From a virus: 40,905 bases of DNA. The first letter of the stretch is position 1; each line of letters begins with the position of its first letter. The notes under the pieces are model-generated. The model did not search any database. It worked only from the letters and a program-made list of their open reading frames with translations, and had not been told where the DNA came from. This document shows positions 1 through 28,553 of the stretch, one piece after another. The DNA lies in the IMG/VR virus record IMGVR_UViG_3300025108_000127, positions 1-40,905 of that record; one strand, given 5' to 3'. The position numbers and the translations under genes were made by a program.

Positions 1-1
1 G

Positions 2-943
2 ACAATCAAAGGCGGCATCTCTACCAACGTCACAGGACTCACGCCTAACGCACTTTATTACGTGCAGGGTGATGGGTCTATAAGTTCACCTACTGCCCCG
101 GACCCGTACAATCTTTCTGGGGCGGTTTACGACAACATAAGCCTCAGTGTCGCTTCGGAAGCAACTGACCCCCAAGGGATTGCTTTTAACGCCGATGGAA
201 CAAAAATCTTTGTCGTAGATGCTTCCGGTGACGATGTAAACGAGTACAGTTTATCAACAGCATATAATGTATCGACAGGGTCATTTGTTAGAAACTTTTC
301 TTTGGCCTCTCAAGACTCCAATCCTCAAGATATAGCCTTCAACACTAACGGCACCAAAATGTTCGTTGTTGGTTATACTGGGCAAGACGTAAACGAATAT
401 ACACTAAGTACGGGTTTTGACATAAGCACCGCTTCATACTCCCAAAACTTTTCTGTTGCTTCACAAGACACCGGCCCGGCAGGTTTGGCGTTTAACACTG
501 ACGGCACTAAGATGTTTATTAGTGGGATTACTAACGATAATGTTTATGAGTACACGCTATCTACTGGCTTTGATGTTTCTACAGCGTCTTTTGTAGATAG
601 TTTTTCTTTTTCTGCACAAGTCACAGACCCAAGAGGCATAGAATTTAATTCTGACGGGACAATTCTATACCTTGTTGATAGGTCTACGGATTCTGTATAT
701 CAATACAATTTAACAGTTGGGTTTGACATTTCTACCGCGTCATATTCCGGCGCTAGTTTTTCAGTGGCATCTCAGGATACCAACCCACACTGTGCAATTT
801 TTAACGGCACAGGCTCAAAAATGTATGTGACAGGAAGAGGAACCGACATAATATATCAATATAGTTTAAACGGATCGACATCTACCGTACTAGCAGGCAA
901 AGCCCTGTCCTCCACTAGCATTAACTTGGATTACACAACATGA
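2..943 (+). CDS. Tail fibre/adhesin-like beta-propeller protein (5'-partial)
   Basis: The reading frame is open from the left edge, so the N-terminus lies outside the window; a GTG at 62 is only an internal candidate. The visible part has five repeats of about 52 residues built on the pattern P-x-x-IAFN-DGTK-hFVV...V-EY-LSTGFD-STAS. This is typical of 40-60 residue beta-propeller blades of the NHL/YncE kind. The segment before the repeats (NALYYVQGDGS) and the C-terminal AGKALSSTSI motif resemble the C-terminus of the next gene, so the two are related modules. Its place upstream of lysis genes in the late block suggests a virion surface or receptor-binding protein. Function is inferred from architecture; no catalytic motif is seen. 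The stop overlaps the next start (ATGA at 940-943). Confidence 0.75.
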   Translation, partial: TIKGGISTNVTGLTPNALYYVQGDGSISSPTAPDPYNLSGAVYDNISLSVASEATDPQGIAFNADGTKIFVVDASGDDVNEYSLSTAYNVSTGSFVRNFSLASQDSNPQDIAFNTNGTKMFVVGYTGQDVNEYTLSTGFDISTASYSQNFSVASQDTGPAGLAFNTDGTKMFISGITNDNVYEYTLSTGFDVSTASFVDSFSFSAQVTDPRGIEFNSDGTILYLVDRSTDSVYQYNLTVGFDISTASYSGASFSVASQDTNPHCAIFNGTGSKMYVTGRGTDIIYQYSLNGSTSTVLAGKALSSTSINLDYTT

Positions 944-3474
944 GCAATTTGAGTGAATTACTACCTGCCGGAGCAGGGGCAAAAAGTGCGGACTTCGTGG
1001 CTAGTGGTACGTTAGGGTCTGGGGCTACTGTCGGGCTTAACTCTGATGGGACTGTGAGTTCAATAGGTTTGGCTTCGGGGGCAATGGTTGAATTTTCTAG
1101 CAATCAAGTACGGTACGTTGCTTCTGCATATGACTCTACAAACGATAAAATTGTTGTAGCGTATAGAGAAACCGCAGCAGGGCCGGATGTTGGTATGGCT
1201 GTAGTGGGTACGGTATCTGGTACGTCTATATCTTTTGGTACTCCCGTGCAGTTTGAAGCAGGAACTACAAACTATATAGATATTGTTTTTGACCCCGACA
1301 CAAGTAAAGTAATAATCGCTTACGAGGATGACACTAATTCCTCTTACGGCACTGCAATAGTAGGGACTGTTTCTGGAACAAGTATAAGTTTTGGTACTGC
1401 GGTTGTTTTTTCAAGTTTTAACACTCGTTATACGTCAATAATTTATGATACCAATGTAGATCGTATTGCCATAGCGTTTACTAAATATGATGGGTTTCAA
1501 CAAGGCTGGGGTATTGCGGGGCAAGTGTCCGGCACAAGCATATCGTTTGGCTCCGCGGTTCGGTTTGACACGGACAACAGCAGCTTCACGGTAGAAATGA
1601 TTGATTTAACCTTTGACTCGACAAACAATAAAGTTATTAACATTTATAAAGGTAACAATAACCGCTTTCAGGGGGTCATAGGGACAATTTCAGGTACGGC
1701 AATTAGTTGGGGCACACCTGTTGACGTTAATACTAGCACCGATAATAGATTCCCTTCCGGTTCATTTGACACAAACGCAGGTAAAATTTTTATAGCCTAC
1801 AAAGACAGCGCCACTGATTATGTTTTGGGCGTTGTCGGCACAGTTTCAGGCACATCTATTAGTTTTGGCACAGCGGTAACTTTAGCTAGTGTAGGAGTAA
1901 ACGGAGAAGTTTCAGCGGCATATAACCCCGACACCCAAAACCATAAAGTAATATATGGCAGTTTGGTTTCCCCGTTCCCAATCCGTCAATTTACGGCAAC
2001 GGTTTCTGGGACAAGCGTTTCTGCCTCTGGCGATAGGGCCGTTACAAGCGACCAAGGTCAAGTGTATCAAAGCGGGTTAACCTATGACACAAACACTAAC
2101 CAGTTTGTAAGCGCAAGTAGAACAACCTCCTCGGAAGTGGGTGGTGGGCTTGTTTATGTATCACCGGCAGGCGCTTCAAATACCGACTTCATAGGCATAA
2201 CAGACCAAGCCATAGCAGATACAGCCACAGGCGCAGTGATTGTGCAGGGTGGGGTTAGTAGCTCAGTTGCGGCCCCATATTTAACCAACAGTGTTGGAGC
2301 AGACTCTGTTTTTGAATCAGCAAACACAAGATTTATTAGTTTGAAGTACGACTCAAGCAACCAAAAAATTGTTATATCTTATTCTGATGTAGGCAATTCT
2401 TATTACGGTAATGTAGTTGTAGGAACTGTAAGTGGCGACTCTATAAGTTTTGGAACGCCTGTAATTTATTCTTCCTCCACTACATACCAACAAAACCTTC
2501 AATACGACTCTAACGCTCAAAAAATTGTCGTTGCTTACCGAAATGCTGGAGCTAGTAATGCGGGGACAGCTCTAGTTGGCACTGTGTCCGGCACATCCGT
2601 ATCTTTTGGATCACCTGTTGTCTTTCATAGCGGTGGAATAGTATATATGTCCGCTGGATTTGACACCACAAATAACAAACTTGTAGTAGCGTATTCTGAT
2701 AACGCAAATTCCAACTATGGCGCTGCTATAGTAGGAACTGTTTCAGGAACATCTATATCTTTCGGTAGTTCTACTGTACTTGCTGCTTCAACTTTAATCT
2801 TGTACCCCGAGTCAATAGCTTTTGATTCTGATAATAGTAAAGTGGTTATATGTAGAAGGGATACGGCGGACTCTAATTACGGAAAGGCTATAGTTGGAAC
2901 TATAAGCGGTACATCTATTTCTTTTGGAAGCGACACTACTTTCAATGCTAATGTTACTTATGAGATTAGCACTGCTTATGACAGCAACGAGAATAAAATA
3001 GTTGTGGCTTACAGGAACAATCTAACGAATTGCTTAGCTAAAGTTGGCACAGTATCTGGGACTTCTATATCTTTTGGAGGTGCTGGAACTATATCTGCCA
3101 CCGACGCAGTAGCTACTATAGTTTTTGATACAAACATAAACAAAATAATTTGTGCGTTTCATTACAGTACAATACAAGGCGCTGTTGGAGAAGTTTCAGG
3201 AACAAATATTACTTTTGGCCCCGCAACAGAATTGGCTGACGGTTCAATATCAGAGGCTGTAAGCACTTATGACGCCGCTAACAGTAAAATGGTAATAGCC
3301 TATAAAGACTCAACTAATTCAAGTTATGGCACGGCTAATGTTGTAAACGCTGGCGACGACCTAACCATAGGCTCTGATTACTACGTTCAAGACGATGGCA
3401 CTCTCTCAACAACAGCTTCCTCTGTCCCTGCGGGCAGGGCTTTATCATCAACCTCAATCCTATTGGAAGGATAA
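940..3474 (+). CDS. Tail fibre/adhesin-like protein with two seven-bladed propellers
   Basis: 844 residues. I count fourteen blade-like units of about 52 residues (core Y/F-D-S-x-N-x-K-h-V-h-A-Y, followed by a V-x-G-T-V-S-G-T-S-I-S-F-G hairpin). They fall in two blocks of seven, at about residues 45-405 and 450-800, separated by a non-repeat linker containing FIGITDQAIADTATGAV. Two seven-bladed beta-propellers in one chain is the simplest reading. The N-terminus (LLPAGAGAKSADFVASGTL) and C-terminus (YYVQDDGTLSTTASSVPAGR) are short motifs that I associate with marine phage tail proteins. It is translationally coupled to the upstream propeller gene by an ATGA overlap. Likely a virion surface protein that binds host polysaccharide or receptor; the ligand is unknown. 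Confidence 0.75.
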   Translation: MSNLSELLPAGAGAKSADFVASGTLGSGATVGLNSDGTVSSIGLASGAMVEFSSNQVRYVASAYDSTNDKIVVAYRETAAGPDVGMAVVGTVSGTSISFGTPVQFEAGTTNYIDIVFDPDTSKVIIAYEDDTNSSYGTAIVGTVSGTSISFGTAVVFSSFNTRYTSIIYDTNVDRIAIAFTKYDGFQQGWGIAGQVSGTSISFGSAVRFDTDNSSFTVEMIDLTFDSTNNKVINIYKGNNNRFQGVIGTISGTAISWGTPVDVNTSTDNRFPSGSFDTNAGKIFIAYKDSATDYVLGVVGTVSGTSISFGTAVTLASVGVNGEVSAAYNPDTQNHKVIYGSLVSPFPIRQFTATVSGTSVSASGDRAVTSDQGQVYQSGLTYDTNTNQFVSASRTTSSEVGGGLVYVSPAGASNTDFIGITDQAIADTATGAVIVQGGVSSSVAAPYLTNSVGADSVFESANTRFISLKYDSSNQKIVISYSDVGNSYYGNVVVGTVSGDSISFGTPVIYSSSTTYQQNLQYDSNAQKIVVAYRNAGASNAGTALVGTVSGTSVSFGSPVVFHSGGIVYMSAGFDTTNNKLVVAYSDNANSNYGAAIVGTVSGTSISFGSSTVLAASTLILYPESIAFDSDNSKVVICRRDTADSNYGKAIVGTISGTSISFGSDTTFNANVTYEISTAYDSNENKIVVAYRNNLTNCLAKVGTVSGTSISFGGAGTISATDAVATIVFDTNINKIICAFHYSTIQGAVGEVSGTNITFGPATELADGSISEAVSTYDAANSKMVIAYKDSTNSSYGTANVVNAGDDLTIGSDYYVQDDGTLSTTASSVPAGRALSSTSILLEG

Positions 3475-3476
3475 CC

Positions 3477-3746
3477 ATGAAAACTATTATTGAAAACGGT
3501 ACTAACTGCTCTAAGTATCTCTTTGCAGACGACAAGCAAGTCAACATGACAGCAGACCATATCGAAGTGGGCGACCCTGCTAACTTGGACTTCATCATTG
3601 GCGACCTAAACTCTGGCAACGCTACTCTGATCGAAGGCGTGACTGAGCCAGACGATTGGTACGGTTGTAAGTACAACTACGTCAATGGCGCTTGGGAGCT
3701 ATGCCCTGATTGGGTTGATCCACGTTTGGAAGAAAACGCGGCCTAA
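3477..3746 (+). CDS. Small tail-associated hypothetical protein
   Basis: 89 residues, starting three bases after the fibre gene stop with ATG in a CCATGA context. It is acidic, contains three Cys (residues 9, 63 and 75), and its C-terminal half has WYGCKYNYVNGAWELCPDW. Small proteins with a Y-x-x-x-x-W pattern like this often follow tail fibre genes and act as fibre assembly or attachment factors; here that is inferred only from position. No membrane segment or signal peptide is visible. Coding is supported by tight packing between neighbours and lack of any other plausible frame. Confidence 0.7.
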   Translation: MKTIIENGTNCSKYLFADDKQVNMTADHIEVGDPANLDFIIGDLNSGNATLIEGVTEPDDWYGCKYNYVNGAWELCPDWVDPRLEENAA

Positions 3747-4448: not shown

Positions 4449-4736
4449 ATGCCACGCACAATAGCGAAAAAACCGGCAGCAGCGAAGAGGAAAGCCGCAG
4501 TGCCCGATACTACTCCTAAGCGGCTGGACCGTATTGAAGAAAAGCTAGAGGAATCCCGTCTTGATCTAGCGCGCGTGGACGAGAAAATTACTACGATATT
4601 TAACAGGCAAGGCAGCATAGAGACTGACGTTAAATCGCTTACTGAGAAGATAGGTAACGGTTTTGTGGAAAAGATTTTTTGGGTTGTGCTTGCTTCGGCT
4701 GTAGGCTTCTTAGCCGCCCAAATAGGTGCTGTATGA
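4449..4736 (+). CDS. Holin-like small membrane protein (coiled coil plus one TM helix)
   Basis: 95 residues. The basic N-terminus (KKPAAAKRKAA) is followed by a heptad-patterned region (about residues 25-70) and a single C-terminal transmembrane helix (about 73-93, IFWVVLASAVGFLAAQIGAV). This layout resembles haemolysin XhlA-type and class III-like holin-associated proteins. It sits directly before the lipase and close to the lysozyme, so it is the best visible candidate for a holin or holin partner. The stop overlaps the lipase start (GTATGA). The assignment rests on topology and context, not on sequence identity. Confidence 0.55.
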   Translation: MPRTIAKKPAAAKRKAAVPDTTPKRLDRIEEKLEESRLDLARVDEKITTIFNRQGSIETDVKSLTEKIGNGFVEKIFWVVLASAVGFLAAQIGAV

Positions 4737-5434
4737 AACTTGACCCCGTACTGCTGAACATGGCCTGCTCGTGGTCCATGAAGGCATATAACGACAAGAA
4801 CAAAGATGCGATCAAGGTCGAGTCCGCCCTGACCTCGACTACAGCCTACGTAGTTAAGCGCAAGACCATCGACATTATAGTGTTCCGTGGTACGCAACAA
4901 ATGGGCGACTGGGCGTTTAACCTTTTCCCTATACCAGTGCCTTATGCCGGTCGGCTTTGCCACGGTGGGTTTGTCGCTGCTCACGCCTCAGTATGGGACG
5001 AAATCGAAGAGCATATAGACTACAGTAAGCGTACGCTAATCTGTGGACACAGCCTTGGTGGGGCACTAGCAGAACTGACAGCAGCCAAGCTAAACGGAAA
5101 GCACGACAACCTGAGCCTGATTACGTTCGGCAAGCCCAATACGTTCTTCAAAGGCTTTAAGCGTCGTATGAAGCTAGACGACCAGATTTCAGTAGTTAAC
5201 GGCAGTGACTCAGTGCCGCGCGTACCGCGCCTGTGCTACGGCCCAAGTAAGTCACAAAACATGCTGTACTTCTCCAACGGCGGCGTAGACTATATTAACC
5301 CCAGTAAGTACCTACGCAGGAAAGACAGGGGTATAAAGGATAGAGTCTCAGACCACTTTATGGACGGATACAAAGACAGACTAACGCAATTCCTAGAGGA
5401 TCAGAAAAATGGTAAGACTGGCGTTGATATTTAG
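4733..5434 (+). CDS. Class 3 lipase-like alpha/beta hydrolase
   Basis: 233 residues from ATG 4733, which overlaps the upstream stop; a longer frame from 4679 would read through the neighbouring gene. The fold markers of Lipase_3 (PF01764) are present: IIVFRGTQ strand (about 48-55), nucleophile elbow GHSLGGAL with Ser107, catalytic Asp in NGSDSVPRVP (Asp159), and His208 in SDHFMDGY. Length is normal for a minimal lipase domain, and no signal peptide is seen. In a lysis-type neighbourhood it may hydrolyse phospholipids or other esters to help membrane disruption at lysis, or act on storage lipids; the substrate cannot be told from sequence. Its 3' end overlaps the lipoprotein gene by 26 bases. 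Confidence 0.85.
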   Translation: MKLDPVLLNMACSWSMKAYNDKNKDAIKVESALTSTTAYVVKRKTIDIIVFRGTQQMGDWAFNLFPIPVPYAGRLCHGGFVAAHASVWDEIEEHIDYSKRTLICGHSLGGALAELTAAKLNGKHDNLSLITFGKPNTFFKGFKRRMKLDDQISVVNGSDSVPRVPRLCYGPSKSQNMLYFSNGGVDYINPSKYLRRKDRGIKDRVSDHFMDGYKDRLTQFLEDQKNGKTGVDI

Positions 5435-5702: not shown

Positions 5703-6125
5703 ATGACCGAAAGACTACTTGAAATGCTCAAGCGCCATGAAGGCGTACGGTCTACGGTGTATTTGTGTTCTGCGGGCTACGAAACCATTGGTGTGGGGCG
5801 AAATATCTCCAGTTCCGGTATGGGTCTGTCCGATGATGAAGTCAATTACCTGCTAGAAAACGACATCGAGCGTGTAATCAAAGAGCTAAGTACTGAATAT
5901 CCTTGGTTTAATAGCCTTGATGATGTACGAAAAGATGCTATGATTGACATTAGCTTTAACCTTGGTGCCACTAGACTTCGTGGTTTCAAGCGCGCATTGG
6001 CTGCTATGGAAGCAGCCGACTACAAATTGGCCGCTAAAGAGTTCTTAGATTCCAAGTGGAGTCGGGACGTAAAAGGCCGTAGCCATGAACTCGCAAGCAT
6101 GATCGAGACTGGCGAATACCTATGA
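5703..6125 (+). CDS. T4-type lysozyme (GH24 endolysin), Cys at the Asp position
   Basis: 140 residues, about the size of a minimal T4-like muramidase that cuts the MurNAc-GlcNAc bond. The catalytic signature E-8aa-D/C-5aa-T is complete: Glu13 (KRHEG), Cys22 (YLCSAGYETIG) and Thr28. The equivalent of T4 Asp20 is Cys here, an accepted variant of the signature. The rest matches the family (VGRN, residues 31-34; ISFNLGATRL, 84-93; SKWSRDVKGRS, 118-128). There is no signal peptide, so export would depend on a holin, a candidate for which lies at 4449-4736. The upstream spacer of 42 bases has only a weak Shine-Dalgarno. Confidence 0.92.
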   Translation: MTERLLEMLKRHEGVRSTVYLCSAGYETIGVGRNISSSGMGLSDDEVNYLLENDIERVIKELSTEYPWFNSLDDVRKDAMIDISFNLGATRLRGFKRALAAMEAADYKLAAKEFLDSKWSRDVKGRSHELASMIETGEYL

Positions 6126-14826: not shown

Positions 14827-17800
14827 ATGGCTACTTTTGAAATACAAATGCCCGATGGCGGCGTTTACCAAGTAGAAGCACCAGAAGGAACCACAGACGC
14901 ACAAGCATACCAATACGCACTAACCCAAGTACCACCACCCGAACCCGAAGTCGGCATAGGTGAAGCGTTTAGTACTGGCTTTGAGCGCGGTGTGGGTAGG
15001 CTTGGCTCTACTGTTACAGACATTATTCCCGCACTAGTGGGAAGTGCTGTAGGTGCTGATGAATACGCTCAGCGTCAATTCCAAGAGGCTGCCGAAAAAG
15101 AGGCGGCTTTGCCTGCTCCTATATTCCCAAGCTACAAAGATGTAGAGGGAGTAGGGGACTTTACCAAATTTGTTGCCGAAACTATCGGTGAACAGATTCC
15201 TAACCTTGGCGTAGCTCTTGGCACGGCTCTTACAGGCGGCGCGGCCGCTCCTGTTCTCGGTGCTACTCGTGCCGCAGGCCAGTTCGCTGGTGCTGCATTC
15301 GGGTCATACGCACTTAACGCTCCTGAAATATTCCAAAATATCTACCAAGAGACCGGAGAGACTGCACCCGGAACAGCCTTACTATTTGGTTCTGCTGCCG
15401 CTGCTCTCGACTCTGTCCTTCCTGCTGCTTTAGCTAGAAATATCTCTGGTCCTGTTAAAGCAGAAGTAACTAAGAAGCTGCTAGAAAGATCGGGCATGAA
15501 CCCCAGTGTGCTGCGGTCGGGTACTACGGGACTGCTTAAAGGGCTAGGCACCGAGGGCCTTACAGAGGGCGCGCAAGAATCTATTAGTATCGCCGCTGAA
15601 CGACTCATAGATGAGAACCCGGACATCTTTGGTAGCAGAGAGTTTGACCGCATCATGGAAGCAAGTGTCCGAGGTGCTGTAGCTGGCGGCGGCTTTGGTA
15701 CTGTTGGTGGGCTAACCGAAGGTGCTAGAGAAAAAGGCGAACAACGAAGAGAACTTCGTGAGCTAGAAGAAGCCAAGACGCTGCAAGAAAAAGCGGAAAA
15801 GCGCGAGGCAGAGTTAAACAGTATTGTAGATGAGGTTATCTTAGAGCAGGACGAGGCAGCTGCGGCTAGTTTCACAGTGCCTACACAGGCGGCGGCAGCG
15901 CAAACCCCAGAGCAGCAAATGCAAGAGTTTGCAGCGCAACAAGACGCGCTAGCCGCAGAAGCTGCAGAAGAAGCTAGGATAGGGCAGGTAGCAGTTGAGG
16001 CGCAGGAGGAAGCTGATACGGCTATTGCTAGGCAAGTCGAGGCGCTAGGGGCACAGCGAGACGCTAAAGCGCGAAGAGAAGAAGCCAAACGCCTAAGAGC
16101 TATTGGAAGACAAGCTCCTGCTGTAGTGGAGGATGCGCAAAGAGGGTTTCAAGCCGCCCAGTTGGAAACAGAAGTAGAGGTGGAGCAGCCTAGTGCAACG
16201 CAGATACCTGCTACCAAAAAAGAATTGCAGCAATGGGGCAGAGAGAATTTAGGAATAGGTCCAACTGCGGCAGTGCTAAGAGAAGATGGACCCCTTGCAG
16301 GTAAAGACCTAACGGACCCCGCGCAAGCTGCTGAAGTGCGGGAAGTGCTAACCTCAGTACAAGAGGCTAGTAAAAGCGCCACGGTGCCTGTAAGAATTGA
16401 CGACTATCTGAAGCAGGATGTGTTTGAAGCCGCACCTGCAACCGCACCTATCGCTGAAACTGTTACAGAAGAAGTAACGCAAGAAGAAGTAGTAGAGCCT
16501 GTAGCTGCGCCTGTCGAGCCTACCGGTGAAGCCGCTATAGCTTCGGAACAAGAACAAGCTGCTGAGCTAGCAGCGGCTGTAGAGACAGAAACTACGGATT
16601 TTATTAACCGAGAGATTTACGAAGCGAAACTAGCCGCAGGTCGTATCGCCAACGGCAGGAAGCTATCCGGGCTTACTGTAGAAGAGCAGCAGGAAGCGAT
16701 AGCCGGTAACGTATTCCCCGAAGACACAGAAGTAGTAAAGCAAGCTGATGGCCTGTCCCTAGGACTTTCTAGGCTGCTCAGTGCGTACAGAGGCTACGTT
16801 ACGGGGGATAACACACAAACGGCTAACCCCGAGGCTGCGCAAAAGTTAGTAGCTCCCATTGAAAAAATAATAGGGAAAGAGCAAGCCGACGCCCTGCTTC
16901 CTAGTATAGCCTCTGCCAACCCAGAAGCATTCGCTAACATGCTGTCTCAAATAAACAGCAGAGCAAAAACTTCGGTAAATACCGTAATACGCGAGGAAAT
17001 ACTCCCCAAGTACGGGCGTAAAAACGCGCCCGTCTACAAAGGTGCCGCATTCAGTCCAGAGGTAAGCCAGCTTGCAGAGCGTGGACGACTCGCACCTTTG
17101 CTTAATAAGTTGATCCCCAGTCAGTCGCCAGAGATACAACGCATACTACGTAAGATAGGCACGCAAAACCTGCGTACTCGTATTGTTGTTGGTGCTACTC
17201 CAGAAGGCACTAGCGGATTCTACGACGCGGCCGCCGACACAATTACGCTCGACCCGACTAACGGCATGAACGAGCACACTGCACTGCATGAGATTACGCA
17301 CGCTGCTCTGGCGCAGGCGCTTAACAACCCTGACCTACAGATCACCAAAGACTTCTTTGACTTCTACTCCCAGATCGTACCTACGATGGACGGGTTTTAT
17401 GGTGGGCAAGACTTACAAGAATTTACTGCTGAGTTGGTGGGTAACCCCGAGTTCCAAGCCCTGCTTAAACAAGTCAAAGCGCCGGAAGGCAGCAAGACAA
17501 TGTGGCAGACCATTATGGACGCCATTGCTAAATTCTTCGGGTTCCGCAAAGGCCAGAGTGCGTATGACAAGGGTCTAGACTTTATAGATAGCCTCCTTGA
17601 TGTGTCTCAGGGTGTAGAGCCTACGCTTACCGACCAGTTATTCCTCGGTACGCCTAAGATGGGCGTTAATGCTATTGGCGACATTATGACCAGTGGCAAA
17701 GAGCTAGCAGGAAAGAAAAAAGAAAGCTTGTTAGATGGGCTTTCTAAGCTTGGCACTACTAGCGGAGGCGGAAGAATACTTAGCAACGCCCTGCGTGCCC

Positions 17801-20301
17801 TTCGACTTAACGACTTAGTTAAACTATACGGCGATAAAATACCTGCTCTTGGAGGGCTGCGCGACGCTATCCTACAGCGACAAGGTGCTGTGGAGAAGGC
17901 TAGAAAAGCGGTGCAGCTTAAGTACATAAGCTTTAAAAAGATAGTTAAGAAGAAGCCTGAGCAAGCAGAAAAGCTAGCAGAGCTGGCCTCTGAGGCACGG
18001 CGGGAAGGCTTTGATCTTGTAGGTGTAGACCCCGAGTTCGATGTAAACGAGCTATCTACTGAGCAGAAAAGAAAGTTCAACGCTATGCAGCGCCGTTTGC
18101 AACGGTTGGACAGCGATGTGCAGGGCATGTACAAAGATATGCGCGAAGATTATCGGCGCATGTACGACCAGTACAAACAATATGTTTTAAGCCAAGTTAC
18201 CGACGGTAAGAAACGAGCGGAGCTAGAAGCTAGATTCCTACGAGAAGCATCGGCCCCCGGCTATGTGCCGTTCTTGCGGTTTGGCGATTACTTCCTAGAC
18301 TACACTGACCCTGCTACAGGTGAGCGAGCGTTTGAGGCGTTTGAATCCCCCCGCAAAAGGCAGCAGTTTATAGAAGCAAACAGAAACAGAATCCAAGACG
18401 AGAAGCAGTTTGACCGCACTGCTAATGCTGTGTTCAATAAGGCAGATTTTCCTCCTACTAGCTTTGTAGGACAACTGATGGACGCCCTCCCTGCGGAGCA
18501 ACAGTCTATCGTGTACGACCAACTTCTAAACCTGTACCCCGAAAACTCTTTTATCCAGCGTACCCGTAAAGCGGACCTGATAAAGGGGGAGACTAAAGAT
18601 TTAGTCCAAGGCTATGCGGATACGATGCTGAAGTGGGCTACGAAGCAAGGTAACTTGGAGTACTTGCCTGAAATACAAAAGAACATGAACGACATAAAGA
18701 GTGCAAAGGTTACCGGTGTTGAAGCATCAGTAGTTGAAGAAATAGGACGACGAGAAGGGTTTATTTCTAACCCCACTTACGGCCCAATGACTTCGTTCTT
18801 TGCCACTTCTGCCTACAACTTATTCCTGACAGGCAACGTTTCGTCAGCCATTGTTAACTTAAGCGCCGTGCCTTTGTTGTCTGGCCCTCTGCTTGTGGGT
18901 GTCTACGGATTTAGAAAAAGTAATGCTGCACTGCTACGCGCCATGCGTGTGACTAAGCCTAGTCTTAGTGAGTGGAACTCTGATACTCAGACCTTTGAGC
19001 CGGCATGGACTAAAGACCCTAAGTATGCAAGTTTGGTCGAGGGGTTAGACGCCATGGGGCAGCGTGAGCACACCATGCAGCGTGAGATACTGGAAGGCTC
19101 TAGGCAAAGTACCCAAGACTATGACGCCCTAGGCGCCAAGGTAATGAACATTGCTAGCTTGCCCTTTACAGAAGCGGAAAAGTACAGCCGTGCTACTACA
19201 GCAGTGGCAGCATACGATCTGGCTAAGGCAGCCGGCAAGTCGGACGCACAAGCGGTAGAGGAAGCAGTAAAGTTAACCATGGATGTACATACTTCTGGTA
19301 TGGCAGCTGAAGGCCCTAGCTTGATGCAAGGTAACCTTGGTCGTGTGATGTTTACGTTCAAGAGCTTCATATGGAACAGTGCTGTTATTACAGCCATGGC
19401 AACTAACAACGCGTTGCGCGGAGAAGGAGAGATACGCTCGATAGCGCGTAAACAAGTGCTTGGTATCTACGGCATGAGTGCAGCTATCGCGGGTATTAAC
19501 GGTCTGCCTTTCTACGGTGCGGCTGCTACGCTCGCAAACATGATGGCGGCTCTGCTCGGTGATGATGACGAACCGTTTAACGCAAAAGAGGAAATGCGTT
19601 CGTTTACTAATGAGTTCTTATACAAAGGCCCGCTGAACTACATAACTAACCTAGAAATATCTAACCGTGTCGGTCTGGCTAATGGATTGCTATTCCGAGA
19701 AGACCCGTACAGTATTGAGCAGAACGGTTACGTTATGACCGCCATCATGCAAGCTATGGGACCTGTGGGAAGCTACGCACTGAACATAGAGCGCAACGCA
19801 GGGCGGTTGCTAGAGCAAGGTGAGTATGGTCGATTCTTTGAATCTATTTCTCCTAGCGCCCTACGCAACATACTCAAGACCGGACGCTACATACAAGAAG
19901 GCGCACGTACTATAGATGGAAAGCCTATTGTTGAAGACTTGAACGGGTACAATCTAGCCTTACAAGCGTTTGGTTTTAGCCCCGCTGATTTGTCTAGCCT
20001 GTATGAGAACCGCGCTGCGGCCCTTAACTACCAGTCACAAGTGCGTAATAAGAAGCAAAAAATACTCAAGAAGTACTACATGGGTGTAACTACAGGCGAT
20101 AGTGGCCTAATGCGCGAAGCACTGCGTGAGTTTAGCGAGTTCTCCCGCAACTTCCCCGGACTTGTTGGGCCTGACACGCTAGAGCGGTCGTTTAAGTCTA
20201 GGCAGGCATACGAGAAAGACTTAGTACTGGGTATGAAGTTCGACAAGGGGCTGCAGAGCAGGCTTAACGATAAGTTCTTGTCTGAGTTTATCGAGCCTTA
20301 A
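14827..20301 (+). CDS. Giant internal virion protein with HExxH metallopeptidase-like centre
   Basis: 1824 residues, the largest gene in the window. It opens with a small domain (FEIQMPDGGVYQVEAPEGT) common at the N-terminus of phage ejection proteins. Residues about 120-200 are Gly/Ala-rich and hydrophobic, perhaps membrane-active; about 300-560 is a long charged coiled coil. Residues about 815-870 hold a zincin signature: HEITH (His821, Glu822, His825), then LQEFTAELVGNPEF where Glu865 or Glu869 could be the third ligand. The remainder (about 950-1824) is helical with hydrophobic segments near 1340-1370 and 1550-1580. Size, order and composition match podovirus ejectosome proteins (T7 gp16-like role, not homology). 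Whether the zincin is active is unknown. Confidence 0.72.
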   Translation: MATFEIQMPDGGVYQVEAPEGTTDAQAYQYALTQVPPPEPEVGIGEAFSTGFERGVGRLGSTVTDIIPALVGSAVGADEYAQRQFQEAAEKEAALPAPIFPSYKDVEGVGDFTKFVAETIGEQIPNLGVALGTALTGGAAAPVLGATRAAGQFAGAAFGSYALNAPEIFQNIYQETGETAPGTALLFGSAAAALDSVLPAALARNISGPVKAEVTKKLLERSGMNPSVLRSGTTGLLKGLGTEGLTEGAQESISIAAERLIDENPDIFGSREFDRIMEASVRGAVAGGGFGTVGGLTEGAREKGEQRRELRELEEAKTLQEKAEKREAELNSIVDEVILEQDEAAAASFTVPTQAAAAQTPEQQMQEFAAQQDALAAEAAEEARIGQVAVEAQEEADTAIARQVEALGAQRDAKARREEAKRLRAIGRQAPAVVEDAQRGFQAAQLETEVEVEQPSATQIPATKKELQQWGRENLGIGPTAAVLREDGPLAGKDLTDPAQAAEVREVLTSVQEASKSATVPVRIDDYLKQDVFEAAPATAPIAETVTEEVTQEEVVEPVAAPVEPTGEAAIASEQEQAAELAAAVETETTDFINREIYEAKLAAGRIANGRKLSGLTVEEQQEAIAGNVFPEDTEVVKQADGLSLGLSRLLSAYRGYVTGDNTQTANPEAAQKLVAPIEKIIGKEQADALLPSIASANPEAFANMLSQINSRAKTSVNTVIREEILPKYGRKNAPVYKGAAFSPEVSQLAERGRLAPLLNKLIPSQSPEIQRILRKIGTQNLRTRIVVGATPEGTSGFYDAAADTITLDPTNGMNEHTALHEITHAALAQALNNPDLQITKDFFDFYSQIVPTMDGFYGGQDLQEFTAELVGNPEFQALLKQVKAPEGSKTMWQTIMDAIAKFFGFRKGQSAYDKGLDFIDSLLDVSQGVEPTLTDQLFLGTPKMGVNAIGDIMTSGKELAGKKKESLLDGLSKLGTTSGGGRILSNALRALRLNDLVKLYGDKIPALGGLRDAILQRQGAVEKARKAVQLKYISFKKIVKKKPEQAEKLAELASEARREGFDLVGVDPEFDVNELSTEQKRKFNAMQRRLQRLDSDVQGMYKDMREDYRRMYDQYKQYVLSQVTDGKKRAELEARFLREASAPGYVPFLRFGDYFLDYTDPATGERAFEAFESPRKRQQFIEANRNRIQDEKQFDRTANAVFNKADFPPTSFVGQLMDALPAEQQSIVYDQLLNLYPENSFIQRTRKADLIKGETKDLVQGYADTMLKWATKQGNLEYLPEIQKNMNDIKSAKVTGVEASVVEEIGRREGFISNPTYGPMTSFFATSAYNLFLTGNVSSAIVNLSAVPLLSGPLLVGVYGFRKSNAALLRAMRVTKPSLSEWNSDTQTFEPAWTKDPKYASLVEGLDAMGQREHTMQREILEGSRQSTQDYDALGAKVMNIASLPFTEAEKYSRATTAVAAYDLAKAAGKSDAQAVEEAVKLTMDVHTSGMAAEGPSLMQGNLGRVMFTFKSFIWNSAVITAMATNNALRGEGEIRSIARKQVLGIYGMSAAIAGINGLPFYGAAATLANMMAALLGDDDEPFNAKEEMRSFTNEFLYKGPLNYITNLEISNRVGLANGLLFREDPYSIEQNGYVMTAIMQAMGPVGSYALNIERNAGRLLEQGEYGRFFESISPSALRNILKTGRYIQEGARTIDGKPIVEDLNGYNLALQAFGFSPADLSSLYENRAAALNYQSQVRNKKQKILKKYYMGVTTGDSGLMREALREFSEFSRNFPGLVGPDTLERSFKSRQAYEKDLVLGMKFDKGLQSRLNDKFLSEFIEP

Positions 20302-23259: not shown

Positions 23260-23489
23260 TTTTTATACTCTACTATTAGCTTCTTGATTATTTCTTCTAG
23301 TTCTTCGCTTGGCTCATGTATGCCGTTAAACCAGTTGTAGACAGCCTGCCGACTGACCCCCAGCCGGTGTGCAACTTCAGTAACGGACACTTCTTTTGAA
23401 ATGCACACGCGACCTAGTTTTACACCTAGCATGGAGCCGTCGGCCTGCTTGTTTAGACTACTGAGCCGTTTAGTGTAGCCATAGCTCAT
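23256..23489 (-). CDS. Helix-turn-helix DNA-binding protein (Cro/C1-like)
   Basis: 77 residues. Residues about 30-68 form an HTH_3-type fold: VTEVAHRLGVSRQAVYNWFN is a textbook helix-turn-recognition helix. The N-terminal 20 residues may be a poorly conserved extension; an alternative start is Met20. It overlaps both neighbours by a few bases (TAATG upstream, ATGA downstream) inside the replication operon, an odd place for a lysogeny repressor. It could regulate early genes, and is one candidate ligand for the palindromes in the right-hand cluster. No integrase or antirepressor is present, so I do not infer a temperate lifestyle. Confidence 0.8.
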   Translation of the reverse strand: MSYGYTKRLSSLNKQADGSMLGVKLGRVCISKEVSVTEVAHRLGVSRQAVYNWFNGIHEPSEELEEIIKKLIVEYKK

Positions 23490-24811
23490 TAGTCTTCGTC
23501 ACCCCATATGTCGATGATGTCAGCCATTTCTTCGTCGTCTGCCGGTGCAGCTTCTTTCTTTTTCTTACGCTTAACAGGCTCAGCGACTTCTTCAGCTTCG
23601 TCTTCTTCAAAAGGGTCAGCTTGCTTAGGGACTGCTGCCTCGGCTTCAAACACGTCGTCATCGTCGTCTGTTGCTGCAGTAAACATGCTCTTAGCGTCAT
23701 CGGCAGTGAAACCCTCAGCTTCCTCGAAGGGAGAAGCAGGCTTGTAGGGCAGATACTTGAGCACTTGTACACCGCGCAAGCGAAGTGAAACACCAGTAGT
23801 GGCCATCTTGAACGGGATCATCTCGACCGCTACATTTACTGTACTACCAGTAGTGAGCATAAAGTCCTCACCGAGGCGGTCGTTCTTCGCGTCAAACTGA
23901 GCAGGCGGCTCGGTTGCGTTGCCGCTGTACGCTGCCTTAAGGCTTGTCTTGCCTACAAAAGTGCCGTCTTCTTGCTTCTTGAAAGGCATCTCTAGTTTCT
24001 TGGGCCACGTCTTATCACGGCCTTTGGCATTGGTGTAAGCGTCCTGCATGATGCCGTACAGCTCTTTGGCTTGCGCTGCTGACATACAGAAGTCCAGCTC
24101 GTAACGTGCGCCGTCTTCGGTAGGGTCACAAGGTACGCTCTTGCCGTTCTTACCCGCCTTGTTGTCAAACCGGTAAGGCTTGTCCAGACGAGGGTAACGC
24201 GCTTCAACGCCTTTGATTATGTGAGATGGGTTAGCCATATACAGTTCCTCTATGTTTCCTATGAAAGGATTTGGTGGTTGCGATGCCGCTTCGATTTGCT
24301 GCGCCGCGATTGCAAGTTCTTCCTCGGCTAAAGGTCGAACTGGTTTAAAATATATCCGGTGCGAGTTGTACTGCTCGACTAGATATAATTCGGTTAAGAT
24401 TTCTTCTGGTTCTTCTCGGTTCTTTTCCAAGTACTCAATGTACTTATAGAAGCCAAGCTTGTTGGTCTCCTTGGAAAACAAACTACTTGCGCTTATGCGT
24501 AGCTCACAGACGATACCGTCTTCGGGCAATAGCACTTTGATAACTTGGTAAAACTTGCATGGAGCACTTCGGTTAAAGCCGCCACTCTTAATGCTTCGGG
24601 TGCAGTCTATACACCGGTTGGCTTGCACCTTGTGTTCGGGCACGTTGCTATCGGGGTAGTCGCATCCGGTGGACCAACAAACTAAACCGCTACTGTCGTA
24701 GTAGCCTCTAGACAGCTCACCTCTATCAACTATCATCACCTGTAGCGAATCTAGGGGGGAGTTGGTCCGTGGGTGTAAGAAACACCCATCTTCATTTTTG
24801 AGTCGAATCAT
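23489..24811 (-). CDS. ssDNA-binding protein fused to a Cys-rich N-terminal domain
   Basis: 440 residues. Residues about 1-185 are a separate domain with Cys45, Cys50, Cys67, Cys70 and Cys85 (VCWSTGCDYPDS, NRCIDCTRS, SAPCKF), a likely zinc site; I recall it as a stand-alone phage protein. Residues 192-440 look like a T7 gp2.5/DUF2815-type ssDNA-binding protein: ARYELDFCMSAAQAKELYGI, a beta-rich core, and a long acidic tail ending DIIDIWGDED, as used by phage SSBs to contact partners. Met192 is preceded by a strong internal Shine-Dalgarno (AGAGGA), so a separate 249-residue SSB may also be made. The gene sits between the helix-turn-helix and Gam-like genes. Confidence 0.75.
   Translation of the reverse strand: MIRLKNEDGCFLHPRTNSPLDSLQVMIVDRGELSRGYYDSSGLVCWSTGCDYPDSNVPEHKVQANRCIDCTRSIKSGGFNRSAPCKFYQVIKVLLPEDGIVCELRISASSLFSKETNKLGFYKYIEYLEKNREEPEEILTELYLVEQYNSHRIYFKPVRPLAEEELAIAAQQIEAASQPPNPFIGNIEELYMANPSHIIKGVEARYPRLDKPYRFDNKAGKNGKSVPCDPTEDGARYELDFCMSAAQAKELYGIMQDAYTNAKGRDKTWPKKLEMPFKKQEDGTFVGKTSLKAAYSGNATEPPAQFDAKNDRLGEDFMLTTGSTVNVAVEMIPFKMATTGVSLRLRGVQVLKYLPYKPASPFEEAEGFTADDAKSMFTAATDDDDDVFEAEAAVPKQADPFEEDEAEEVAEPVKRKKKKEAAPADDEEMADIIDIWGDED
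24230..24255 (-). promoter_or_regulatory. Internal ribosome binding site for a short SSB form
   Basis: On the minus strand the sequence reads ATAGAGGAACTGTATATG, placing GAGGA seven bases before an in-frame ATG (24236-24238, Met192 of the 440-residue protein). This is a better Shine-Dalgarno than the one at the gene's own start (24811), where none is obvious and coupling to the upstream stop is likely. Confidence 0.6.
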
Positions 24812-27462: not shown

Positions 27463-27888
27463 TTACCCTTGACGTAATTTTTTAAACTTTTCCATAGGTA
27501 TGTACACGCATTCCTCTACATCAAGCGCGTCTCCTCTGTCGGTTCGTCCTCCTTCGCCTGATTCGTACGTGTCTTCAATCTTAGCTACCATAAGAACGTC
27601 AGTAAACTGTACGAACAGTAAGGCGGGTACTTTTAAAGCCGAGGACAACTCTAGCATCGCTCTGTGCTTTGCAGCGCTTAACATATAAGTCGGGTACTTA
27701 TCATGTGCGTTAGTGCGTACCTTAAGCTCTGCTACTGCGTAAAGCGTGTTGTTGGCGGTGCATATTAACCTATCAACCACACTTAACGGGGGCAATTTTA
27801 CACACACGGCTTTGTGTGTAGTCTCAAAAGTTTTAAACACTTCGTGCTCTTTCATTAAGTCTTCTTGCTTCTCGTATATAGGTCGCAT
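27463..27888 (-). CDS. PD-(D/E)XK-like nuclease
   Basis: 141 residues. The core VVDRLICTANNTLYAVAELK gives Asp39, then Glu54-Leu-Lys56, the spacing expected for a PD-(D/E)XK nuclease. It is followed by a helix (YPTYMLSAAKHRAMLELSSA) and strand (PALLFVQFTD) as in the Holliday-resolvase-like fold. It probably cuts branched or host DNA during replication and recombination. The ATG overlaps the stop of the Cas4-like nuclease upstream (TAATG at 27886-27890 on the minus strand), which suggests the two are made together. Confidence 0.72.
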   Translation of the reverse strand: MRPIYEKQEDLMKEHEVFKTFETTHKAVCVKLPPLSVVDRLICTANNTLYAVAELKVRTNAHDKYPTYMLSAAKHRAMLELSSALKVPALLFVQFTDVLMVAKIEDTYESGEGGRTDRGDALDVEECVYIPMEKFKKLRQG

Positions 27889-28553
27889 TATCTTCTCCTG
27901 TTATGCTCACAGCTAGTAACCGGACAGAACGCACACAGCGGCCCGTCGATTGCATTCCACACATCGTTTTCTTGTGCTACTTCTAGTCTTTCTAGCTCAT
28001 CATTGAACACACTTAAGTACGACTTATACATATCTACGGTGTGCTTTTTTTGTATGAACTCATTGCTTACTACATATGCTAACGCAGACTTAATGACTTT
28101 TACTTCGGGGTAATTAACAAACGTAGCGCCCGCCATTAAGTCAAGCTGTTTGGTGTCGGCGTACTTAGCGTTCTTACCTGTCTTGTAATCTATAAGGTAA
28201 GCCTTATCGCCGTTTACTATTAACAAGTCGACAATGCCGCGCCACCAAACGTCTTTGGCAAAGAACGTAGTAGGTTTGAAAGCGTTGTCCTCCTTAGCCA
28301 CAGCCATGCGTATTTCGCAATGCTTCTCGCCTTCGATACGGTTAAACGCATCTAGGATTTTCTTAACGTAGTCAAACTTAGCGGGGATAGGCTCGCCGTC
28401 TCTTATGTAGTGCTCGGCAGCTTTATGCACTTCGTTGCCATAGAAAGTCGCAGCGTTACCTTTATCTTTAACATCCTTAGCTACTTTTAGATGGTAGTAT
28501 TTCTTAGGACATTGCTTGAACGTGCTTATGCTGCTGTAAGACCAAGCTGTCAT
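27888..28553 (-). CDS. Cas4/RecB-like exonuclease with predicted Fe-S cluster
   Basis: 221 residues of the PD-(D/E)XK RecB/Cas4 superfamily (PF12705-like). Visible motifs: STFKQCPKKYY with Cys15, GNEVHKAAEHY with His43, RGIVDLL with Asp109, and LIDYKTGK with Asp122 and Lys124. Three C-terminal Cys (207, 210, 215; PLCAFCPVTSCEH) plus Cys15 match the four-Cys iron-sulphur arrangement of Cas4 and AddB. It is expected to be an ssDNA exonuclease acting in phage recombination or host DNA breakdown. There is no CRISPR array or cas1 nearby. The start overlaps the SNase-like gene stop (ATGA). Confidence 0.88.
   Translation of the reverse strand: MTAWSYSSISTFKQCPKKYYHLKVAKDVKDKGNAATFYGNEVHKAAEHYIRDGEPIPAKFDYVKKILDAFNRIEGEKHCEIRMAVAKEDNAFKPTTFFAKDVWWRGIVDLLIVNGDKAYLIDYKTGKNAKYADTKQLDLMAGATFVNYPEVKVIKSALAYVVSNEFIQKKHTVDMYKSYLSVFNDELERLEVAQENDVWNAIDGPLCAFCPVTSCEHNRRR

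Follow-up and report, generated by a model that had tools for sequence, protein, structure and literature searches.

How does a phage tail gene built from many copies of one short repeat change from relative to relative? The question is raised by an open reading frame (ORF) in a marine phage, IMG/VR record IMGVR_UViG_3300025108_000127, positions 1-40,905. This whole stretch of 40,905 nucleotides (nt) is called the window below, and is locus L001 among the viral loci compared, which carry L-numbers. The ORF, at 940-3474 on the plus strand, starts with ATG and encodes 844 amino acids (aa); it would be the third of three tandem paralogous tail genes named A, B and C, and the position of a gene in this order is called its slot. 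A preliminary description of the DNA had read the repeats as blades of a receptor-binding array that grows by blade duplication. The evidence assembled here argues for another answer, which we consider likely: the genes carry interchangeable receptor-binding heads in slot-specific holders, and these heads are moved by recombination.

Architecture of the gene cluster

Each gene consists of a cap, a ring and a socket, and rings are of two kinds, type-1 with seven units and type-2 with five. The left end of the window holds the following features.

2..943, plus strand: tail gene B, 3' part; rest of socket part 1, five-unit ring at about 131-871 and socket end ...AGKALSSTSINLDYTT; cut by the window edge
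940..3474, plus strand: tail gene C (844 aa), coding in this order for the cap, ring 1, socket part 1, ring 2 and socket part 2; both rings seven-bladed
940..1074, plus strand: N-terminal cap, aa 1-45; gene-slot specific, low model confidence
1075..2172, plus strand: ring 1, aa ~46-411, seven blades; DNA 96% identical to ring 1 of L004 gene B
2185..2271, plus strand: socket part 1, aa ~416-444, DFIGITDQAIADTATGAVIVQGGV...; left edge of a replaced block at nt 2260
2272..3360, plus strand: ring 2, aa ~445-807, seven blades; L164 and L087 have a different ring here
3361..3474, plus strand: socket part 2, aa ~808-844, YYVQDDGTLSTT...AGRALSSTSILLEG, and stop
3477..3746, plus strand: small gene, homologue of ICBM2 gene 48 (annotated as tail assembly chaperone); diverges along with ring 2 in L164 and L087

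The repeat count of the preliminary description, fourteen units split 7+7, holds for gene C. Twelve SG[TD]-[SAN][IV][ST] positions are spaced 47-54 aa apart with one jump of 142 aa, and the last unit of each block lacks the hairpin, so that counting both gives 7+7 units. The fuller hairpin motif V[SNG]G[TD][SAN][IV][ST][FWA][GS] occurs 10 times in the protein and in none of 2000 shuffles.

The preceding gene had been described as a five-repeat gene with the same C-terminal motif. Five FNxDGTK-like units, 51-52 aa apart, are indeed present in ORF 2-943, and comparison of its C-terminus AGKALSSTSINLDYTT with AGRALSSTSILLEG of gene C shows that the common motif is real. The five-repeat gene is not a separate design, however, because ORF 2-943 is open at the first base of the window, whose edge cuts a two-ring gene. 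The complete gene B can be read from a contig that appears as L003, L006 and L164 and that is 99.8% identical in DNA to window positions 1-2260 (4 mismatches). There, at L164:10247-12466, its product has 740 aa and the five-unit ring is preceded by one of seven units, so genes B and C are both two-ring proteins. Gene A lies outside the window and was read from the same contig, where it is a third, one-ring gene ahead of B and C; a gene upstream of the ring cluster has a tail-fibre family match over 77 residues. The product of the small gene at 3477-3746 is 37% identical over 82 residues to that of gene 48 of the Lentibacter phage vB_LenP_ICBM2 (hereafter ICBM2).

Predicted fold and variable face of the rings

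The preliminary description had predicted two seven-bladed propellers in gene C, and AlphaFold2 together with structural alignment bears this out. The gene C model, based on 26 aligned sequences, has a mean predicted local distance difference test score (pLDDT) of 78.9, and its ring blocks lie mostly at 70-94. Both halves show a seven-bladed fold in their 7+7 units, in the strand pattern of each unit and in Z scores of 28.7-33.3. Residues 445-807 are best matched by YncE (Z 33.3, root-mean-square deviation (rmsd) 2.4 over 305 residues), which we take to be seven-bladed, and residues 58-411 by propeller lectins of Burkholderia and Photorhabdus (Z about 29-31, best 30.9). The first long strand of each block (50-65 and 456-471) would fit an N-terminal closing strand, and the last unit of each block is without its d hairpin, a pattern that may reflect closure of the ring by strands from both ends. 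These alignments were made domain by domain, because a whole-chain Foldseek search aligns both rings together and returned large multi-propeller proteins on top, with rmsd mostly above 20.

A model of the complete L164 gene B (pLDDT 83.3) agrees with this picture. Its first ring matches the same kinds of chain as the gene C rings, and domain-wise alignment returned almost only this seven-bladed half. The five-unit ring of gene B is predicted to form five blades of four strands: 20 strands were modelled in 468-716, in five repeats, with pLDDT mostly 85-96. The matches that Foldseek found among viral models include many unnamed proteins, and the one at rank 4 belongs to ICBM2. A profile of the 26 sequences gave five hits in the PDB at E up to 1, none of them a PLL-type lectin chain. 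The Pfam family Cyclophil_like2 was matched in 4 of the 26 relatives (best 1.8e-09); the matches, which cover about 33 residues of one blade and lie above the family cut-off in the two members inspected, were taken as chance repeat likeness.

Receptor binding by the rings is plausible. The main competing idea is that they are enzymes (lyases or hydrolases of glycans) or decorate the virion passively. Non-lectins are among the best structural matches, for example a virginiamycin B lyase against ring 1 of L164 gene B (Z 32), and gene C has no family in Pfam or NCBIfam at E 0.01 (the XD and TD docking domains of Ackermannviridae were not searched by name). The distribution of change within blades points the other way, if weakly, no search for catalytic residues having been made. 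Across 1674 distinct blades, conservation is among the highest in the c-d hairpin and among the lowest before strand a and in the b-c loop. In 23 ring pairs, each ring used once, nonsynonymous divergence (dN) reaches 0.150 for the d-a loop and 0.103 for the b-c loop; the c-d turn has 0.025, and values outside the two loops are 0.025-0.066. Synonymous divergence (dS) is 0.215-0.307 throughout. The resulting dN/dS ratios are 0.49 for the d-a loop, 0.35 for the b-c loop and 0.10-0.29 elsewhere. The earlier claim of a near-constant hairpin with variable loops thus survives in the dN values. The d-a and b-c loops of propellers lie on one face. An enzymatic or purely decorative role is unlikely in our judgment, but it should be kept in mind, and the lectin-like reading is the one carried forward.

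Caps and sockets follow the slot

Forty of 52 uncut clusters have three tandem ring genes, in 16 architectures. Slot labels were taken from the last residues of each protein (A ...NMMDLT, B ...NLDYTT, C ...LLEG, and variants), and the socket was located with a 69-position C-terminal profile made from 30 one-ring genes. Omitting 5 duplicate rings and 4 genes of uncertain slot left 42 genes, all with distinct rings. Among these, the nearest neighbour from another locus belongs to the same slot for 40 caps, 42 socket starts and 41 socket ends, the last figure being partly true by definition since the tail defines the slot. The rings of these genes agree in slot in 14 cases, with 14 expected.

A larger set of 83 genes leads to the same result. 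Of 170 rings, 35 were excluded for want of a slot label, and 13 because they were nearly identical to another ring of the same slot and position. Nearest neighbours of first rings agree in slot 28 times, against 28.2 ± 5.2 expected. On trees built without the label-defining tail, the slot changes 8 times for caps, 5 times for the first 24 socket residues, 4 times for cap and socket together and 37 times for rings; shuffled labels give means of 36.3-38.7 over the trees, and 38.3 ± 2.5 for the ring tree. Because this thinning was one-sided, affecting only near-identical rings of the same slot, the test was repeated unthinned and with slot-blind removal. With slot-blind removal at 97, 90 and 80%, agreement was 28/82, 26/79 and 26/77 against 27.8, 25.8 and 26.0 expected. 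For second rings, 22 of 39 nearest neighbours are in the same slot (18.1 expected) and the tree has 12 changes against 12.9. Caps and sockets therefore follow the slot, and rings do so hardly or not at all.

A second ring is found at one of two loops of the socket. Where a type-1 ring is inserted, socket part 1 stops at position 24-38 in 59 of 61 genes; where a type-2 ring is inserted, it stops at 45-57 in all 17 (only identical proteins had been removed, so these counts are otherwise redundant). Seven-unit rings thus enter the first socket loop and five-unit rings the second. Seven further genes carry a third type of insert, of 98-111 aa, at the first socket loop. This insert (L254, L255, L260, L267, L268, L271 and L277) has a conserved His-Pro and, in six of the seven as cut, a C-terminal Cys-x2-His-x2-Met, a pattern like that of a type-1 copper (cupredoxin) site.

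Ring replacement and transfer between slots

Direct evidence that rings are replaced comes from near-identical phages. Beyond nt 2260 of the window, L164 and L087 share a different ring 2, 99.8% identical between them over 1641 nt, and L087 is near-identical to the window again from about 3750 to about 5250 (L164 ends earlier). The identity breaks at 2260 and about 3750 define the replaced block as ring 2, the socket end and the small gene at 3477-3746. Transfer between slots is clearest in L004, where gene B consists of a gene-B cap, the ring of window gene C at 96% identity, and a gene-B socket. The first 60-90 nt of its cap are 93-100% identical to gene B of L177, L117 and L169 and 67-97% to that of L094, and its socket start is 73-100% identical to those of these B genes.

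Among inter-locus ring pairs, 64 have at least 80% DNA identity over 350 nt, and ten of these link different slots, assigned by tail and gene order, with unrelated flanks: L001 (the window)/L004, L249/L262, L285/L293, L254/L268, L253/L285, L294/L307, L007/L011, L170/L242, L274/L297 and L253/L275. Change-point fits to the ten pairs give cores of 81-96% and outer flanks of 36-60% DNA identity. In the eight first-ring transfers the right border falls at socket position -6 to +7, and in seven the left border is at residue 21-71, two of these (63 and 71) lying within the first blade. The two inserted-ring transfers have their borders inside the socket (32 and 28; 37 and 53).

Could such mosaics be chimeras of metagenome assembly, formed at repeated blade or hairpin sequence? 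The relatives are nearly all IMG/VR contigs, and blades have short repeats in common. Yet the ring-2 junction of L164 recurs in L087, which comes from another metagenome, caps and sockets stay slot-paired over the 83 genes, and the exchanged rings differ by 4-19% between contexts and so are not copies joined within one assembly. Assembly error is accordingly a very improbable source of the pattern.

No more credible is the idea that rings diverge in place, very fast and under receptor selection, until the signal of the ring tree is lost. Mean ring identity is 0.37 whether rings come from the same slot or another, and the ring tree is poorly resolved, as this idea would have it. The synonymous sites tell against it. 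In 31 same-slot pairs from 17 loci (thinned, lipase dS 0.05-1.2), ring dS exceeded lipase dS in all 31 and the ring was saturated, while pooled dS in these pairs was 0.55 for the lipase, 0.82 for the cap, 0.63 for the socket start and 0.75 for the tail. Without thinning, where some loci are pieces of identical or near-identical contigs, first-ring dS in the same slot lay more than 0.3 above that of the lipase in 83 of 84 pairs over the same range and was saturated in 79; the exception, L007/L256, shares its ring. At lipase dS above 1.2 the comparison is uninformative. Saturation of synonymous sites is not what selection on the protein alone would produce; in related phages, then, most rings of the same slot are not orthologous. 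The ten cross-slot pairs and the block replaced between nt 2261 and about 3750 in otherwise near-identical phages are likewise at odds with divergence in place.

Exchange is thus well supported, and the question becomes whether it is programmed by a dedicated phage system such as a site-specific recombinase, an invertase or a diversity-generating retroelement. One three-slot layout with so many ring combinations (16 in 40 three-gene clusters) would suit such a system. Nevertheless, no reverse transcriptase or site-specific recombinase family was found among the window proteins scanned (not every ORF was), and caps and sockets show no synonymous conservation as recombination sites, with dS of 0.63-0.82 against 0.55 for the lipase gene. 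Among the kept rings, no copy between genes of one locus exceeds 0.57 identity. In-genome copying was not detected in 45 same-genome first-ring pairs, none of which is above 0.6 identity, a result that is uninformative since only 8 of 2214 cross-genome pairs of different genes exceed that value. A programmed mechanism would be surprising on this evidence.

Ring size

The number of blades per ring is fixed. From start plus 42 residues to the socket, the median length is 373 residues, and 116 of 118 first rings lie within 26 residues, or half a blade, of it; inserted rings lie within half a blade of their median in 63 of 65 seven-unit and 16 of 16 five-unit cases. Of 265 uncut type-1 clusters, 206 have seven units, 34 six, 9 fourteen and 16 other numbers, and 140 of 148 internal type-2 clusters have five. 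Six-unit counts are read as containing one sub-threshold blade, because the segment length is unchanged. No eight-blade ring was confirmed, and the eight-unit counts inspected rest on spurious short hits. In L009 and, in part, L016-L085, proteins reach about 1700 aa, with type-2 units mostly in fives, that is, chains of five-unit rings.

Growth of the array by blade duplication, the idea in the preliminary description, is the least credible explanation of all: some rings do have very alike blades (within-ring identity up to 0.69) and amplification of propellers from single blades has been described (PMC9218822), but ring size in the relatives stays at seven or five, no ring of eight blades came to light, and blades of different rings at the same blade number are on average as alike (identity 0.401) as blades within one ring (0.404). 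The fixed length bears on present growth and leaves a distant origin of rings by duplication untouched. Arrays grow and change by whole rings, and what varies is which ring sits where.

A model for ring exchange

These results are best combined as follows. Each of the three genes encodes a seven-bladed propeller held between a cap at the N-terminus and a socket of about 69 residues at the C-terminus, cap and socket being specific to the slot. The socket may carry a second propeller, seven-bladed near position 24-38 or five-bladed near 45-57. Caps and sockets probably anchor each protein at its position in the tail. The rings would be lectin-like receptor-binding heads on the virion, probably touching the cell through the face formed by the d-a and b-c loops. 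When phages co-infect a cell they would probably recombine, with whole rings replaced at junctions in or beside cap and socket, and a ring could land in any of the three slots. Two proteins of the phage itself, an annealing protein and an exonuclease, would perhaps help.

23489..24811, minus strand: Gp2.5-like single-stranded DNA-binding/annealing protein; phrog_112 4.9e-16, PF21265 5.1e-05 (below family cut-off); candidate recombination helper
27888..28553, minus strand: PD-(D/E)XK exonuclease; phrog_69 1.3e-23, PF12705 1.6e-13; candidate recombination helper

Several results weigh against this picture. In the gene C model, cap and socket blocks have pLDDT of only 32-68, so that their fold is not fixed, and a predicted template modelling score of 0.49 leaves the relative placement of the parts equally loose. 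Twelve of the 52 uncut clusters fall short of three ring genes, with a single one in eight and two in four, and two of the 61 inserted type-1 rings sit at outlying socket positions (47 and 56). Exchange is not visible in every comparison: all 23 pairs with lipase dS below 0.05 share their ring, several of these loci belonging to one contig or to overlapping ones. In the L274/L297 transfer only a portion of the ring was moved, with a break inside the ring beside an ISFGTPV hairpin. Unthinned first rings carry a weak slot signal, 39/90 against 30.4 ± 5.7 (reached by 37 of 500 shuffles), and their tree has 37 changes against 41.4 ± 2.7 (reached by 16 of 200), as expected from closely related phages. 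Nor is ring position free, since the nearest neighbours of first and second rings hold the same position in 103 of 122 cases against 68.9 expected, and the trimmed-ring tree shows 26 changes of position against 33.0. The loop dN/dS of 0.35-0.49, faster than elsewhere, is not above 1. Finally, the relatives are IMG/VR contigs except for ICBM2 and one metagenome-assembled genome (MAG). Only two of the 50,697 records in the 'phages' collection match gene C by tblastn at 1e-5, both of them ICBM2, and among 84,980 species genomes scanned a single MAG contig had a match.

With whole rings exchanged between constant holders, a single step is probably enough for the virus to alter what it attaches to. 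Carried further, the model may describe a three-slot display, in which three position-coded carriers, each a cap and socket, would draw on one population-wide pool of interchangeable heads, of two sizes with two size-specific docking loops, and any of up to six heads could be changed by one recombination event with the others undisturbed. This extension is tentative, and we would not yet bet on it. Even so, the unit of exchange, its borders, the docking loops and the movement between neighbouring genes can all be read from sequence, and they reveal an unannotated family of seven-bladed rings, together with a holder domain into which rings of different size fit naturally. Natural pairs make receptor change without breakage of tail assembly testable: in the stretch compared, the differences between the window and L164 and L087 come down essentially to a single propeller, the end of the socket and the small gene next to it. 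ICBM2, as a cultured relative, is a starting point for experiments.

Other features of the window

A class-3 lipase is encoded at 4724-5434 on the plus strand (PF01764, 2.2e-18), near an endolysin-like gene at 5703-6125, and relatives of it are encoded in 286 viral stretches. A 615-aa virion protein of the window shares 39% identity with its counterpart in phage DSL-LC04 and about 34% with those of Roseobacter phages CRP-901 and CRP-902. The 1824-aa product of 14827-20301 (plus strand) matches a DarB-like antirestriction PHROG over residues 1129-1813 (2.8e-65), and has a weak match to a PHROG named virion RNA polymerase. The palindrome AACCTACAANTTGTAGGTT occurs seven times (33805, 35812, 37041, 38141, 39382, 40064 and 40314), six copies being exact and one carrying a mismatch, against a shuffled mean of 0.01. 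Several of them are found a short way upstream of the starts of ORFs on the minus strand, as a common operator or leader hairpin might be.

Comparison with known systems

Propellers in phage adhesins have been published for phi11, PRD1 P2 and PhiKZ gp131C (PMC4901313). The five-bladed receptor-binding protein of phi11 and the seven-bladed PhiKZ gp131C resemble the present case in that propellers occur in proven or putative adhesins, and in phi11 an N-terminal strand closes the ring (PMC4901313). The phi11 protein differs in having one propeller per chain, in a trimer, and the parts of that account consulted do not describe tandem genes with exchangeable or loop-inserted rings. The PLL, PHL and BP39L lectins of Photorhabdus and Burkholderia have a fold like that of ring 1 (Z about 29-31), and the available account of the PLL family calls it seven-bladed; they are not phage proteins, identity is 8-11%, and the likeness is one of fold.

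A cultured relative is ICBM2 (genes 49 and 51), the only phage of the 'phages' collection in which tblastn found relatives of gene C or of L249 gene B. Four type-1 units and a socket were detected there, and a nearby gene has five type-2 units; identity is 31.8% over 29% of the query, and the gene order is different. For the group to which ICBM2 belongs, the stretch that follows the terminase gene has been reported to vary and to encode tail fibres (PMC6775973).

Variation of host-recognition genes among otherwise near-identical marine phages is also known from metaviromic islands, where the parts consulted describe no structural unit of exchange; propeller, recombination and cassette do not occur in the main text of that report (PMC3909814). 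Alteromonas phages V22 and A5 have a host-recognition module and chaperone common to distantly related phages, and there it is the fibre module that is exchanged, whereas here it is rings between neighbouring genes (PMC10579305, PMC7289586). TSP1-4 of Ackermannviridae offer a further parallel, with several adhesin genes, constant docking parts, exchanged receptor-binding parts and recombination at conserved ends (PMC11414711). Those tailspikes have a constant N-terminal and a variable C-terminal part; here a conserved cap and a conserved socket flank the ring, with a second ring set into a loop of the socket, and the word propeller is absent from the main text of that paper. In the titles and abstract openings of the open-access papers listed by the searches, no description of whole-propeller exchange between tandem tail genes was found. 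Exchange of adhesin modules is already known in phages, and whole-propeller exchange is a variant of it.

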